DNA of 64,000 bases from Arthrobacter sp. MYb227 (GTDB lineage: Bacteria; Actinomycetota; Actinomycetes; Actinomycetales; Micrococcaceae), in assembly GCF_002975435.1 (NCBI RefSeq), contig NZ_PCPT01000002.1, forward strand, positions 248,001-312,000, in the 5' to 3' direction. Numbering within the stretch: the first letter of the stretch is position 1; every line of letters starts with the position of its first letter. Below, piece by piece: positions 59,122 to 64,000 of this stretch. The notes under the pieces are model-generated. The model made no database searches, was not told the origin of the DNA, and was given only the letters and a program-made list of their open reading frames with translations. The position numbers and the translations under genes are program-made.

Positions 59122-61521
59122 TTACTTAGGCGTCTGAGACTTCAGCATATTTAGCGCCTCGGAAAGAATCGCAAGCTGAACATTTGTCCCGTAGAACTTC
59201 AAAATGACATCACTTAGATACAAGGCATTTCTTCGCACTAGCTCTTGTTCTACTGGGCTGAGGTCTGTATCGTGACCGAGGATGTCTAAAGTTCGGTTGC
59301 GTTCGTCCACGCTCTTGAGACTAGGCATCGGTTCCCGCGACTTGGGCATACCAGCTGGTGTCGGTACTGGAGGGCTTACCACATCGGGGGTATCCATAGA
59401 TGCTGCGCCGTAGTCGGCCCCATGGTGAACTTCAGAAATAAAGACATCTACTTCAGTTGTTGATGATTCTTCCCTGGTCGGTACTACGTTATCGATGACC
59501 TTGATTGTAGTGAATGCGTCTGCAATAAGCTCAGGCACACGCCCCGAAGGACACAACACATCAAGCCTGCTGGTAGTGCGTGTCAAAGCAATATATAGCA
59601 GTCGTTCTCCGTTGTCGTCCTCAAGTATTCGTTGGGGATCGACGACTATGATGGAATCAAATTCCAGTCCTTTGGAATCGCTCGGGGTTACAAGGTTGAT
59701 TGATTTGCCCAGCTGACCGGAACTTGAATCACTCCAGATGAGTTCTTCCTGACTGAATGCTTCCTTGATTTCGTCCCAGCGTTCCTTCTGTGCGATGACT
59801 CCAACAAATCGTCCTTTACCGCTGTGATGGCTGGCGACCTTGGCGACTTCTAGCGCCAGTTGGGCATCTGGCACATCAAAAAGTGTTGGTATGGCATTGG
59901 CAGCTCGAACAATAATCGGTGCCCTCAGATCAGGCGCTGCGATTGGTAATAAGCGCGCGGCAATGTCGAATACTTCTCGTGGCACACGGTATCCATGCTC
60001 CAATTCCTCCACCCGGTAAGGTAGCGCAGATTTGAGTGAGGAAATAATATCGGCCCAGTCAGCTCTAGCGAATGCCCCCGTTGACTGGGCTACATCGCCC
60101 ACGATGGTCATTGAACCAGTCTTCGATCTGCGACGCAGCGCCATAAGTTGCATAGGGCTAAGATCCTGAGCTTCATCGACAATGATATGGCCATACAATT
60201 CGGAGCTGCCCGTCATGTTTTCGTTGGCCTCATCAATAAGCGCAAGGTCGGCCAAAGTCCATGGTTCTTGGTCCATACGCGCGGCTGCAGATCTGTAGAG
60301 CAGATCGACGACATCCGATTCAAAGACTTGATCGATAGCGGTGCGAAGCCGGTTTTTTGAGCCTAACAATTCACGGATGAATTGAGGTCCGCTTAACTTG
60401 GGCCACATTTTATCGACGGCTGCTTCAAGTGACGCCGGCTCGAGAACATTTGAAATGTCTACTTCGCCGCGTGTGCCAACTTGAGCGAGACAGTGCTGCA
60501 GGAGCCGCTCACGTAGTTCACCGCGCCCTTGACCGTACGGAAGATGCCTAAGTCTATTCACATCGTCGGTGATCAACTCTGGGCCAATGTTAATCGTCAC
60601 GGCTGAGCTGCGGCGTCTAATTCGCAGCGGTGATGAAGGTACTTTGATTCGGTCATTTAACCCATTGGCAATAACATCAGCCATTTCTGCTCGGCCTTTG
60701 AGGCGCTCCGCTGCATCGCTGTCGATTCCTCGAACCGGTAATGAACCGGCCATCAACTCTTGAACTGAAGTTTGTCGAATGTCCTTGTCACCTAAAGCAG
60801 GGAGAACATGCTGGATATATTTTGTAAAAGCAGGGTTGGGACCAACCACTAACAGATCCTGAGCAGTCAGCTTGTCGCCGTAATTATATAGGAGCCAAGA
60901 CGCGCGGTGTAAAGCAACGGCGGTTTTTCCGGTGCCTGGACCACCCTGAATAATAAGTAATTGGTCTATGTCGGCACGCATCAATTTATCTTGAGACGCT
61001 TGAATGGTCCGAACTATGTCCTGCATTTGGCCAGTTCGGCCTTCAGCCAAGGATTGGAGGAGAGCATCGTCAGCATGAAATTCTCCGCCGAGATCCTCGA
61101 GACGAGCAGCCAACTCCACAAAAATTGTATCTTCGAAAGACTCAACGTGGTTCTGAGAAGTTGAAAAGATTCGCTTGCTTTTCAGTCCCATCTGATCATC
61201 CGTAGTGGCTTGGTAATAACACTTCGCAAATGGGGCTTTCCAACTTATTACTAGACGGGTGCCATCTTCGGAAAGAATAGGAACCTTGCCAACATAAATA
61301 TGGTCGCCGTCGTCTAGCTCTACCCGCCCAATAGCGATGGCGTCGTCTATTTGTAGCGTCTCTGCAGATTCAAGGTGCGTTTTCATAGCGCGACGTTCGG
61401 GGCCCGACCCCATAGTACTTTGAAGACGTTTTCGCTCGAGCAGGTTACTCTCGTAGACCTCTCGAGTTTCATCAAAAAAGGTCTGTTCTTTAGCCAAATC
61501 ACCCGAATAATCATCCTGCAT
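59122..61521 (-). CDS. HelD-like SF1 (UvrD/Rep) motor ATPase
   Basis: 799 aa. Walker A GGPGTGKTA at 193-201, DEAQDLSPMQLMALRRR at 449-465 (Walker B with the SF1 DEAQ), the motif GDVAQSTGAFA after it, and SDSKGLEFDSIIVVDP plus YIALTRTTSRLDVL near the C-terminus. The N-terminal coiled-coil-like 1-60 and the helical region at 240-420 between the helicase motifs match the HelD layout, where such arms reach into RNA polymerase channels and free stalled or drug-bound enzyme. ATG 61521 follows GGGGGAACCG. It is divergent to the ATPase gene at 61901, and its base composition is AT-richer than the catabolic genes. Housekeeping or defence-linked use is open. Confidence 0.83.
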   Translation of the reverse strand: MQDDYSGDLAKEQTFFDETREVYESNLLERKRLQSTMGSGPERRAMKTHLESAETLQIDDAIAIGRVELDDGDHIYVGKVPILSEDGTRLVISWKAPFAKCYYQATTDDQMGLKSKRIFSTSQNHVESFEDTIFVELAARLEDLGGEFHADDALLQSLAEGRTGQMQDIVRTIQASQDKLMRADIDQLLIIQGGPGTGKTAVALHRASWLLYNYGDKLTAQDLLVVGPNPAFTKYIQHVLPALGDKDIRQTSVQELMAGSLPVRGIDSDAAERLKGRAEMADVIANGLNDRIKVPSSPLRIRRRSSAVTINIGPELITDDVNRLRHLPYGQGRGELRERLLQHCLAQVGTRGEVDISNVLEPASLEAAVDKMWPKLSGPQFIRELLGSKNRLRTAIDQVFESDVVDLLYRSAAARMDQEPWTLADLALIDEANENMTGSSELYGHIIVDEAQDLSPMQLMALRRRSKTGSMTIVGDVAQSTGAFARADWADIISSLKSALPYRVEELEHGYRVPREVFDIAARLLPIAAPDLRAPIIVRAANAIPTLFDVPDAQLALEVAKVASHHSGKGRFVGVIAQKERWDEIKEAFSQEELIWSDSSSGQLGKSINLVTPSDSKGLEFDSIIVVDPQRILEDDNGERLLYIALTRTTSRLDVLCPSGRVPELIADAFTTIKVIDNVVPTREESSTTEVDVFISEVHHGADYGAASMDTPDVVSPPVPTPAGMPKSREPMPSLKSVDERNRTLDILGHDTDLSPVEQELVRRNALYLSDVILKFYGTNVQLAILSEALNMLKSQTPK

Positions 61522-61900: not shown

Positions 61901-64000
61901 ATGGCTGAAACGACGGTTGCTGGCGTCTGGACTGACAGTGAACTAGAATCCTTGACCGACGCTTATTTGGTGATGCTCCACTCGGAAATAGAAAAAGAAC
62001 CCTTTAATAAACGGCAACACAACATTGCCCTGCAAGAGAAGATCAATCGTACTCACGCTTCAATTGAATTTAAGTTTTGCAATCTAAGCGCAGTGCTTTT
62101 AGATTTGGAAAGAACTTATATCAATGGATATAAACCTCGAGATCATTACCAGCAAGCGCTTAAAGACCTTATTCTGAGGCGTTTAGATGAATTTCCTAAG
62201 GCATCTACTGAGCAGATGAACAAGAGAACTATGCCGGTCGAAGACCCGAATTCTAAAATCATAGATTCTCAGACAGGAGCGTCTTCTAGCAAGTCCGTCA
62301 ATGAGGGTTTCCTTCATTCAAAGATTGCTTCAGATTCCATCACTCTAGATGTCAAGCAAGATAAGTTCAGCAAACCGAATGATATCTGGGATGCGTTGAC
62401 TGCGCTTTGGGAACGCTCAACGGGAGGCTCCGGTGTTGCTGATAGACCAGAAGACAGTCACACGAGTCGTATGCCGATTGCTCCTCGTCCTGCTGGAGTA
62501 GAAGAAGCTTCCGTGTGGTTTGGTCAGAATCTGAAGGATGCGACGATCCCAAGGTTTCTATTTCTTGTAGGTGGGCCTGGAGCAGGTAAATCGCATACTG
62601 CAAGCTACTTGGTCAAAGATCTCGAAAAAATTTCGCCGGGTGATGATGGGCTTGCCCACCGGAAATATACGTACAAAGTAGGAAACCATCGCTTAGACCT
62701 AATAAATGACGCCACGATTCCGTCCGATGGAAGGAATTTGGGACCATTGGTCCAAGACCTGCAGGAATCCATCGCTGATGAGAACCACGTCATAGCTTGT
62801 GTGAATAGAGGAGTGCTCATTGAAGAAACTAATCATTTCGCGGGGAAGGACCTCGCTGAGCTAACGCCAGGCGAAGTGATAACGAAATGGCTTGCCTCAA
62901 ACGAGGCAGGATTTCTTCCAGACCAGGAGTGGAAGATATACAGCGATTTGAATCTGGACTATATTCAGTCAGGATTCCTTTCACATGGATCCCGAAAGAT
63001 CGCTGAGATTGTAGCGGTCTTTGTAGATGTTTGTTCGTTATTCGAGACAAAACCGGTTCCACAGCTTGACCACAACAATGAATCAGCGATGACCTCCTAC
63101 CAAAGTACTTATGAAATCGCTGATTTTTTTGCTCGATCAGATATTCCAATTGAAGATTATCCGGCAGGTGTTCTTTTTTCAAAAATAGTTAAACAGTTAT
63201 CAACGCTTGATTTTTGCGATGTAGATGAGAGGTTTAACCCAATCGCTGCGAATATCGCTGCGCTTGGTACTCTGCCCACTCAACGATCACTGTTATCGAT
63301 AGTTAGAGCGTCAGAGATAGTCAGTGGCCAACGATTTACATACCGCGAGGTATGGGGCGTAATTGCACGAATAATTGTTGGCGGTCTTACTGAGACCATC
63401 GAAAGTTCGAACCTTAAAGAACACGTGTATCAAATGAAATCCGATAATCGAACGGAGATCGATCACTTTAAACACATGAGGAAGCTTGCTGCAATTCGTT
63501 ATAATCAGTCGCTCTTTGGAATAGGTGATATTACGAGCTCAGCGAAAGATGATTCAAAGCGAAATCCAGTAACACGATTGACTAGCAGGGTTGACCCTAT
63601 GCGCGATGCAGTGGCCGGCAAACGCTCATCAGGCAAGAACAAGGGCTGGGCTACACCTGTAACCGAAGCTTTCTCAGGCCCGGCGGTGGCCGGTTCCCCC
63701 CTGAAGACCCTCGAAGAAATCCTTGGTCCTGAGGACCTTTTTTCCGAGATAGTTCAACCGTTCGACCGAGAGCTTGACCACGCCTTTGCGACAGTGATGA
63801 GTGTCGATACGTTGCCAGAGTCGCAGAGGTTTGAGTTCATTCATTGGTATGGCGCGTATCTCGGAAGGCTCTATGCAGTTACCCACGGAATACCTGCATT
63901 TGAACGAGAAGTCGCGCTCTGGATCGAGGCTTGGTATTCAAAGCCCAATCTTCCGATGGAGCTCGAAAGCGGGTTACAGACTCTACTTCGACCAAAGAGG
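61901..64000 (+). CDS. Large P-loop ATPase with McrA-like N-terminal module, incomplete at window end
   Basis: Open from ATG 61901 (an in-frame TAG lies 18 bases upstream) to the last base with no stop, 700 codons seen. Residues 10-95 carry WTDSELESLTDAYLVML, IEFKFCNLSAVLLDL and YINGYKPRDHYQ. That pattern is known from the N-terminal part of ScoMcrA-type and other restriction-linked proteins (from memory). A low-complexity linker follows to about 200, then a P-loop GGPGAGKS at 224-231, and HVIACVNRGVLIEE at 296-309, which could hold a Walker-B or sensor Asn/Arg. No nuclease motif is seen so far. Coding DNA is visibly AT-richer than the catabolic island. Function unknown; a defence role is an inference. 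Confidence 0.7.
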   Translation, partial: MAETTVAGVWTDSELESLTDAYLVMLHSEIEKEPFNKRQHNIALQEKINRTHASIEFKFCNLSAVLLDLERTYINGYKPRDHYQQALKDLILRRLDEFPKASTEQMNKRTMPVEDPNSKIIDSQTGASSSKSVNEGFLHSKIASDSITLDVKQDKFSKPNDIWDALTALWERSTGGSGVADRPEDSHTSRMPIAPRPAGVEEASVWFGQNLKDATIPRFLFLVGGPGAGKSHTASYLVKDLEKISPGDDGLAHRKYTYKVGNHRLDLINDATIPSDGRNLGPLVQDLQESIADENHVIACVNRGVLIEETNHFAGKDLAELTPGEVITKWLASNEAGFLPDQEWKIYSDLNLDYIQSGFLSHGSRKIAEIVAVFVDVCSLFETKPVPQLDHNNESAMTSYQSTYEIADFFARSDIPIEDYPAGVLFSKIVKQLSTLDFCDVDERFNPIAANIAALGTLPTQRSLLSIVRASEIVSGQRFTYREVWGVIARIIVGGLTETIESSNLKEHVYQMKSDNRTEIDHFKHMRKLAAIRYNQSLFGIGDITSSAKDDSKRNPVTRLTSRVDPMRDAVAGKRSSGKNKGWATPVTEAFSGPAVAGSPLKTLEEILGPEDLFSEIVQPFDRELDHAFATVMSVDTLPESQRFEFIHWYGAYLGRLYAVTHGIPAFEREVALWIEAWYSKPNLPMELESGLQTLLRPKR

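Follow-up and report, generated by a model that had tools for sequence, protein, structure and literature searches.

A DndFGH-like operon accompanied by a C5-cytosine methyltransferase, a candidate restriction-modification system of Arthrobacter sp. MYb227

The window analysed here, a stretch of 64,000 nucleotides from Arthrobacter sp. MYb227 (contig NZ_PCPT01000002.1, positions 248,001 to 312,000), ends inside a gene that we term F'. An ATG-initiated frame opens at position 61901 on the forward strand and runs without a stop to position 64000 (61901..64000; codons 1-700), and when the source genome was read past the window the stop was reached after 827 codons, at window-equivalent position 64384, as expected from a preliminary description of this DNA in which the gene was held to be unfinished and longer than it first appears. 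The motifs named in that description are present in the F' sequence. Its P-loop GGPGAGKS (Walker A; 62570..62593) is invariant in five of five aligned F' homologues, and the linker that it had called disordered has pLDDT values below 50 (residues 101-147) in the AlphaFold model of a relative from locus L033 (Arthrobacter sp. UNC362MFTsu5.1). F' matches the DndF profile and carries, likewise on the forward strand, an N-D motif after strand 2 (INDAT, 62705..62710; invariant in five of five homologues, with Q-D in its place in the alignment of three plasmid F'), an Asn replacing the Walker B Asp (ACVNRG, 62804..62806; invariant, the plasmid F' included) and a TYRE motif in the helical lid (63338..63349) that aligns with TxRE of DndF. 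The N-D after strand 2 and the Asn at Walker B are listed among the features of DndF in PMC10853773 (section 20). Some 400 residues that had at first gone unrecognised can now be assigned, by position and predicted structure, to the helical lid and the C-terminal alpha+beta domain of DndF, as the L033 model has a long helical stretch followed by an alpha+beta end, the sequence match to DndF covering the first part of the lid only. F' would be the nucleotide-binding regulatory subunit of a complex.

The N terminus of F' had been described as McrA-like, a label that is not supported, as neither Pfam nor NCBIfam gave a match there. No SRA, SBD or HNH domain was found in F' with these two libraries at E 0.1, and a McrA/HNH type IV reading was rejected for want of such support. 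Instead, residues 8-121 (61922..62263, forward strand) match the PADLOC candidate family PDC-S36 (E 1.9e-29) and form four helices in the AlphaFold model of the L033 relative. By alignment or length, this module is found in 14 of 18 actinobacterial F' frames versus none of five others, being absent from the called frames of L034, L035, L043, L076 and the five non-actinobacterial loci, and it is matched alone, without the rest of F', in 11 further genomes of the family sample. On these alignments the module is an optional add-on of F', which fits the varied N-terminal domains that DndF cores bear according to PMC10853773 (section 20). As to its role, it may serve as a nucleic-acid-binding, target-recognition or co-effector unit, and the open-access literature yielded no paper under the name PDC-S36. 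At L025-L032 we observed PDC-S36-type proteins of about 260-320 residues, in which the module is joined to a NOV_C domain named by Pfam in three of three tested; an ExK-type motif is visible in these PDC-S36/NOV_C proteins, and one of them, scanned with PADLOC, matched PDC-S36 over its whole length.

The right-hand partners that the preliminary description had placed beyond the window are indeed there, in the form of a DndG-like protein, a DndH-like nuclease-translocase and a C5 methyltransferase. In window-equivalent coordinates, G' occupies 64395-65825 on the forward strand (a frame of 494 codons in full, giving 476 residues from the ATG that fits the homologues), H' follows at 65839-71430 on the same strand (1863 residues), and the methyltransferase gene lies at 71489-73120 on the reverse strand (543 residues), convergent with H'. 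From the gene spacing we assume that F', G' and H' are co-transcribed. In the alignment the methyltransferase retains GGPPCQ, ENV and GNAV, which we take to be the motifs of a catalytically complete C5 methyltransferase, and it is therefore predicted from these motifs to be complete.

One gene lies on either side of this group. Divergent from F', at 59122-61521 on the reverse strand, lies the SF1 motor that had been noticed as its neighbour and that proved to be HelD/HelR-like (best NCBIfam E 1.7e-99, with a score of 334 bits, far below the model cut-off of 1100). This gene (GC3 0.47) is an extra divergent paralogue, with about 34-37% identity at best, over part of its length, to relatives in the same genome and genus. 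On the other side, at window-equivalent 73354-76356 (L002:15354-18356, reverse strand), a protein of 1000 residues consists of an orphan N-terminal part, about 640 residues long, fused to SigA regions 1.2-4; the sigma part is 75% identical to the housekeeping SigA of the genome over 341 residues and host-like in GC3 (0.637), the orphan part has a GC3 of 0.415, and the NCBIfam model MzaA matches the sigma part only. The orphan part had no match in 196 other genomes of the family or in plasmids, and two marginal matches of 41-46 residues among 395 other genomes of the order. The fusion looks like a captured SigA domain; that it serves as a decoy or guard for sigma-targeting phage proteins would be a bold guess. 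At E 1e-4, the 16 further actinobacterial loci compared contain no relative of the HelD-like motor or of the SigA fusion, so that both were rejected as parts of the system and the notion of the SF1 motor as a member of a defence grouping is not supported.

Profile comparison suggests that F' is a distant DndF, and the match is uneven. A profile of 17 F' sequences matched six DptF with P 94.6% (E 6.7e-8) over a stretch that holds the P-loop, DAT, the Asn at Walker B and the TxRE motif of the lid; P was 66% when four DptF were used instead of six, 58% for the five F' from outside Actinobacteria alone (from plasmids and the virus contig) and 91.7%, over 52 lid columns only, for the actinobacterial F' alone, and single DptF proteins, scored in a set of 15, matched the F' model weakly (E 1.3e-4 to 0.09). 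The curated DptF (TIGR03238) and DptG (TIGR03236) models did not match F' and G' of the MYb227 locus, nor those of L033 and L050, the latter in a test in which Massilia DptF, Massilia DptG and Priestia DptF did match; surveys that rely on these models would therefore probably overlook the system. Against the PDB, F' had no match by sequence and only P-loop fragments by fold (no match with E up to 0.001), and since a DptF query did not find a PDB chain either, the missing DndF match says nothing.

For G', sequence profiles gave no match to DptG (P <3%). Its AlphaFold model (pLDDT 80, pTM 0.87; fold models were built on 15 sequences) was searched with Foldseek against 350,542 PDB chains, and the top match was 7exx, 'structure of DndG' (probability 1.00, E 1.4e-3), followed by a next match at E 0.86 and probability 0.03. 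The superposition on 7exx has TM-scores of 0.44/0.46 and an rmsd of 9.9, and the model suggests that G' resembles DndG (triple winged helix) in overall fold, with TM below the customary threshold of 0.5.

The kinship of H' is carried by its C terminus, as the last 330-350 residues match DndH models at 1.8e-62 and the solved DptH domain 7es4 at 4.2e-44. A profile of 13 H' matched three DptH with P 100 (E 2.4e-51) over 708 columns spanning nuclease and motor; taken alone, the motor part matched DptH with P 100 (E 2e-59) and the nuclease part with P 66% (E 5.6e-5), versus at most 0.2% for the nuclease part against DptF and DptG as a control (at most 0.5% across the N-terminal, middle and nuclease blocks). 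All of the 12 H' and four DptH aligned retain the nuclease site, a D followed by ExK. The C terminus of H' is thus predicted to be a PD-(D/E)xK nuclease followed by a HerA/FtsK ATPase, as in DndH. Residues 1-700 and 700-1140 of H' had no sequence match to DptH (P 0.2% and 4.7%), which is why the recognition parts may differ. PHROGs gave no match for F', G' or H'.

Loci of this kind are scattered in the sampled genomes, and their recurrence shows that the F' frame is real and not a product of chance. A full-length F' homologue was found in four of 196 other genomes of the family (38-39% identity; in two pieces in G104), that is in five of 197 with MYb227 included, and G' in at least two of 396 genomes of the phylum when four candidates were scored per genome; a scan of named genomes gave 15 loci, and scans of virus contigs gave two relatives in A5 and one weak partial match in A1. 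The base composition of F'G'H' and the methyltransferase is foreign (GC3 0.41-0.46 vs 0.61-0.66 in two flanking genes), and the AT-richness remarked on earlier is evident in the window itself (46.4% GC at 61901-64000 vs 56.0% at 1-61900). When 13 neighbours of homologous loci were picked, ten matched PADLOC families, including Druantia DruE and DruK by L037, DruE by L046, a DrmD-like and a TmtA-like protein by L042, a ThsA-like protein by L036, PDC-S15 by L033, Septu PtuA by L073, a MkoA-like protein by L050 and, as a weak match, an HNH protein by L048, and three picked neighbours by L033, L049 and L076 had no PADLOC match. These neighbours, together with the identities of G', H' and the methyltransferase, support the proposal of a horizontally acquired defence system; the preliminary interpretation therefore stands for horizontal acquisition and hidden partners and finds no support as regards the McrA-like module and the SF1 motor as a part. 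In an empty-site comparison within the genus (15 genomes), the right flank was found at length in MYb227 and G180 only, and in G180 it does not stand in a matching order with respect to the left-flank gene. Several loci have peculiarities of their own: at L042:3075-9361 the genes for the DrmD-like helicase and the TmtA-like protein sit immediately upstream of F', on the opposite strand; on a Pseudoalteromonas plasmid a protein of 164 residues that has no Pfam match is encoded between G' and H' (L048:9840-10334); and the Sinorhizobium fredii GR64 plasmid p64a (L053:4227-10065) has a shortened H' of 1169 codons, which is followed by Vsr and has an integrase and an IstB-like gene in front of it on the opposite strand.

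A C5 methyltransferase was present in 21 of 21 complete F'G'H' loci, comprising all 17 actinobacterial loci (MYb227, L024, L033, L034, L036-L047 and L076), which come mostly from Arthrobacter and its kin and are often closely related and thus do not amount to 17 independent cases, and all four complete loci elsewhere (three plasmids, from Pseudoalteromonas (L048), Shinella and Rhizobium (L050), and one virus-labelled contig). G157, G123 and G135, the same contigs as L044, L039 and L047, were counted once, and L034 was included among the complete loci with a methyltransferase gene that is truncated by the edge of the stretch and lies about 1.4 kb from H'. Outside the 21 are L035, whose contig ends inside H' and which has Vsr but no methyltransferase within 2 kb upstream of F'; L074, whose contig stops after F' and which does have a methyltransferase; L053, with a shortened H' and a stretch in which a methyltransferase was not found; L056, whose contig begins inside G' and which has Vsr and no methyltransferase; and L075, with only a weak F-like match. 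The methyltransferase gene precedes F' in L043, L049, L050, L073, L074 and L076 and follows H' in the others, and it is inverted in the MYb227 locus and L034; Vsr is encoded in 11 of the 17 actinobacterial loci and in three of the four complete loci elsewhere. By tblastn at E 1e-6 in stretches of 21-25 kb, none of six DptFGH-type loci (L051, L052, L055, L057, L058 and L059) had a relative of the F'G'H'-linked methyltransferases, although two of them encode methyltransferases that are annotated differently (Dam family in L055, a putative PT-associated one in L059). DndC (TIGR03183), which transfers sulfur in PT modification, was found in none of 17 carrier genomes, the genome of L035 being left out of the search, and in neither of two carrier plasmid records, and the one positive control was recovered.

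The MYb227 enzyme itself is of another lineage than its F'G'H' would predict. F', G' and H' of MYb227 are 45, 51 and 48% identical to those of L033, whereas its methyltransferase shares 32-36% identity with the enzymes of eleven other loci; those of L024, L033, L036, L037, L041, L044 and L047 are 49-77% alike mutually. The L043 methyltransferase is also distant (31-35%), and a swap there is less sure because F', G' and H' of L043 likewise stand apart (33-41% to those of the other actinobacterial loci). Among the best eight of 382 plasmid records, the best matches of the MYb227 methyltransferase were in five (47-49% identity over 95-97%), on gammaproteobacterial plasmids of 12-111 kb, and a MvaI/BcnI-family endonuclease adjoins the matching methyltransferase in three of three records; no close relative was found at E 1e-60 in 296 other genomes of the order. 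The kinship with MvaI/BcnI-associated enzymes predicts that it would mark a CC(W/S)GG-like site. With an enzyme of another lineage here, the mark-maker seems exchangeable, and its replacement rather than loss suggests that F'G'H' depends on a methyltransferase. Since this enzyme is both convergent with H' and of another lineage, its pairing with F'G'H' at the MYb227 locus is judged by position alone.

Taken together, we propose, with a probability of roughly 0.75, that F'G'H' is a three-subunit restriction complex homologous to DndF-DndG-DndH and paired with a C5-cytosine methyltransferase in a restriction-modification system that would use 5-methylcytosine, rather than phosphorothioate, as its self mark. 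DndFGH forms a 2:2:1 complex that nicks DNA in a translocation-coupled manner and whose ATP hydrolysis is repressed by phosphorothioate (PT) marks, according to PMC11662687, and by homology F'G'H' should translocate and nick DNA. The methyltransferase would mark host DNA with 5-methylcytosine, most simply the self mark by analogy; F', G' and H' would assemble on DNA, the HerA/FtsK motor of H' would translocate, and its PD-(D/E)xK site would nick or cut DNA lacking the mark. At a cognate site 5-methylcytosine may halt translocation or the hydrolysis of ATP, in the way that phosphorothioate acts on DndFGH, and Vsr, often encoded nearby, could repair T:G mismatches arising from deamination of the mark. 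PMC12707154 reports that restriction was not fully lost when dndF, dndG or dndH was deleted singly, a result that fits poorly with a simple obligate complex.

The strongest competitor to this restriction-modification proposal holds that F'G'H' is a standalone DndFGH-type counter-invader machine that responds to other cues (nucleotides, DNA in transit), the methyltransferase being a separate travelling defence gene. The variation in position and strand of the methyltransferase between loci would suit such an arrangement, and PMC10853773 argues in section 25 that DndFGH is standalone, without an inbuilt modification module. We nonetheless regard it as unlikely, because a methyltransferase accompanies every complete locus, that of MYb227 with its other-lineage enzyme included, because such an enzyme is missing from the six DptFGH-type loci compared, and because replacement without loss points to dependence. 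Less probable still is an abortive infection sensor, silent as long as the chromosome is methylated and lethal to the cell once methylation is inhibited or diluted by a phage: the same anatomy suits it as well as restriction, and PMC12707154 reports toxicity of DndFGH in some cases where the modification partner is missing, but according to the same source a suitable PT modification shields phage and plasmids from DndFGH in vivo, which for DndFGH speaks in favour of classical restriction. That the HelD-like motor, F'G'H' and the SigA fusion act jointly on RNA polymerase is very improbable, for although the homologies of both flanking genes point to RNA polymerase (HelD/HelR; SigA regions 1.2-4) and the HelD-like gene and the N-terminal part of the fusion share the low GC3 of the operon, neither has a counterpart in the other 16 actinobacterial loci at E 1e-4, and G' and H' resemble DndG and DndH.

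Within the restriction-modification proposal, a further idea, which we offer tentatively and hold to be rather doubtful, is that FGH is a restriction chassis indifferent to the chemistry of the self mark, served by phosphorothioation in Dnd systems and by 5-methylcytosine here, with the methyltransferase swapped between lineages (in MYb227 and perhaps in L043). If so, in place of a fixed modification reader, FGH would have to respond to something that marked sites have in common, or its specificity would have to come from the modifying enzyme. The way in which DndFGH distinguishes self from non-self when PT genes are not nearby is an open point in PMC10853773 (sections 12, 22 and 25), to which a divergent FGH family with a constant 5mC partner would be one concrete answer, testable with ordinary methylation tools. 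We found no description of an FGH operon with a cytosine methyltransferase in the open-access literature as far as it was read (preprints, supplements and most subscription papers aside), which included passages of PMC12839542, PMC12707154, PMC11662687 and PMC8569181.

Among known systems, DndFGH/DptFGH share with F'G'H' the order F-G-H, the DndF motifs, the DndG-like fold and the DndH nuclease site and HerA/FtsK motor. They differ in that F' and G' are invisible to the DptF and DptG models, that most actinobacterial F' have the added PDC-S36 module, that a C5 methyltransferase lies beside F'G'H' in every complete locus and DndC was not found in the genomes searched, and that residues 1-1140 of H' cannot be aligned by sequence to DptH. 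The N-terminal part of DndH comprises an inactive SWI2/SNF2 domain, beta-sandwiches, TRDs and an inactive DAM domain. PADLOC treats PDC-S36 as a single-gene defence candidate; its N-terminal module is that of F', joined to NOV_C in the PDC-S36-type proteins and to a DndF-like core in F'. With MADS there is a HerA-like similarity of the H' C terminus to mad8 (3.9e-15), and the reading of H' as mad8 was rejected against 1.8e-62 for DndH models; besides H', mad8 matched F' alone (0.013), among the best 25 of 62 families listed for the methyltransferase and the best 25 of 39 for the HelD-like protein. Type II MvaI/BcnI systems have kin of the MYb227 methyltransferase beside MvaI/BcnI-family endonucleases on plasmids, whereas the MYb227 locus is without such an endonuclease, and a separate system of this type was rejected as the endonuclease was not found in the genome in a search run without a positive control. 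In PMC10853773, cytosine methylases are tied to systems anchored on CxC-DndE, and DndFGH is called standalone. These Pbe-like systems are alike in that cytosine methylation replaces phosphorothioate in a Dnd-related setting. Their described anchor consists of a CxC ABC ATPase, DndE and an HKD nuclease-helicase (section 16), whereas in the loci read the interval from F' to H' contains no gene large enough for an ABC ATPase, and the partner of the methyltransferase here is FGH.
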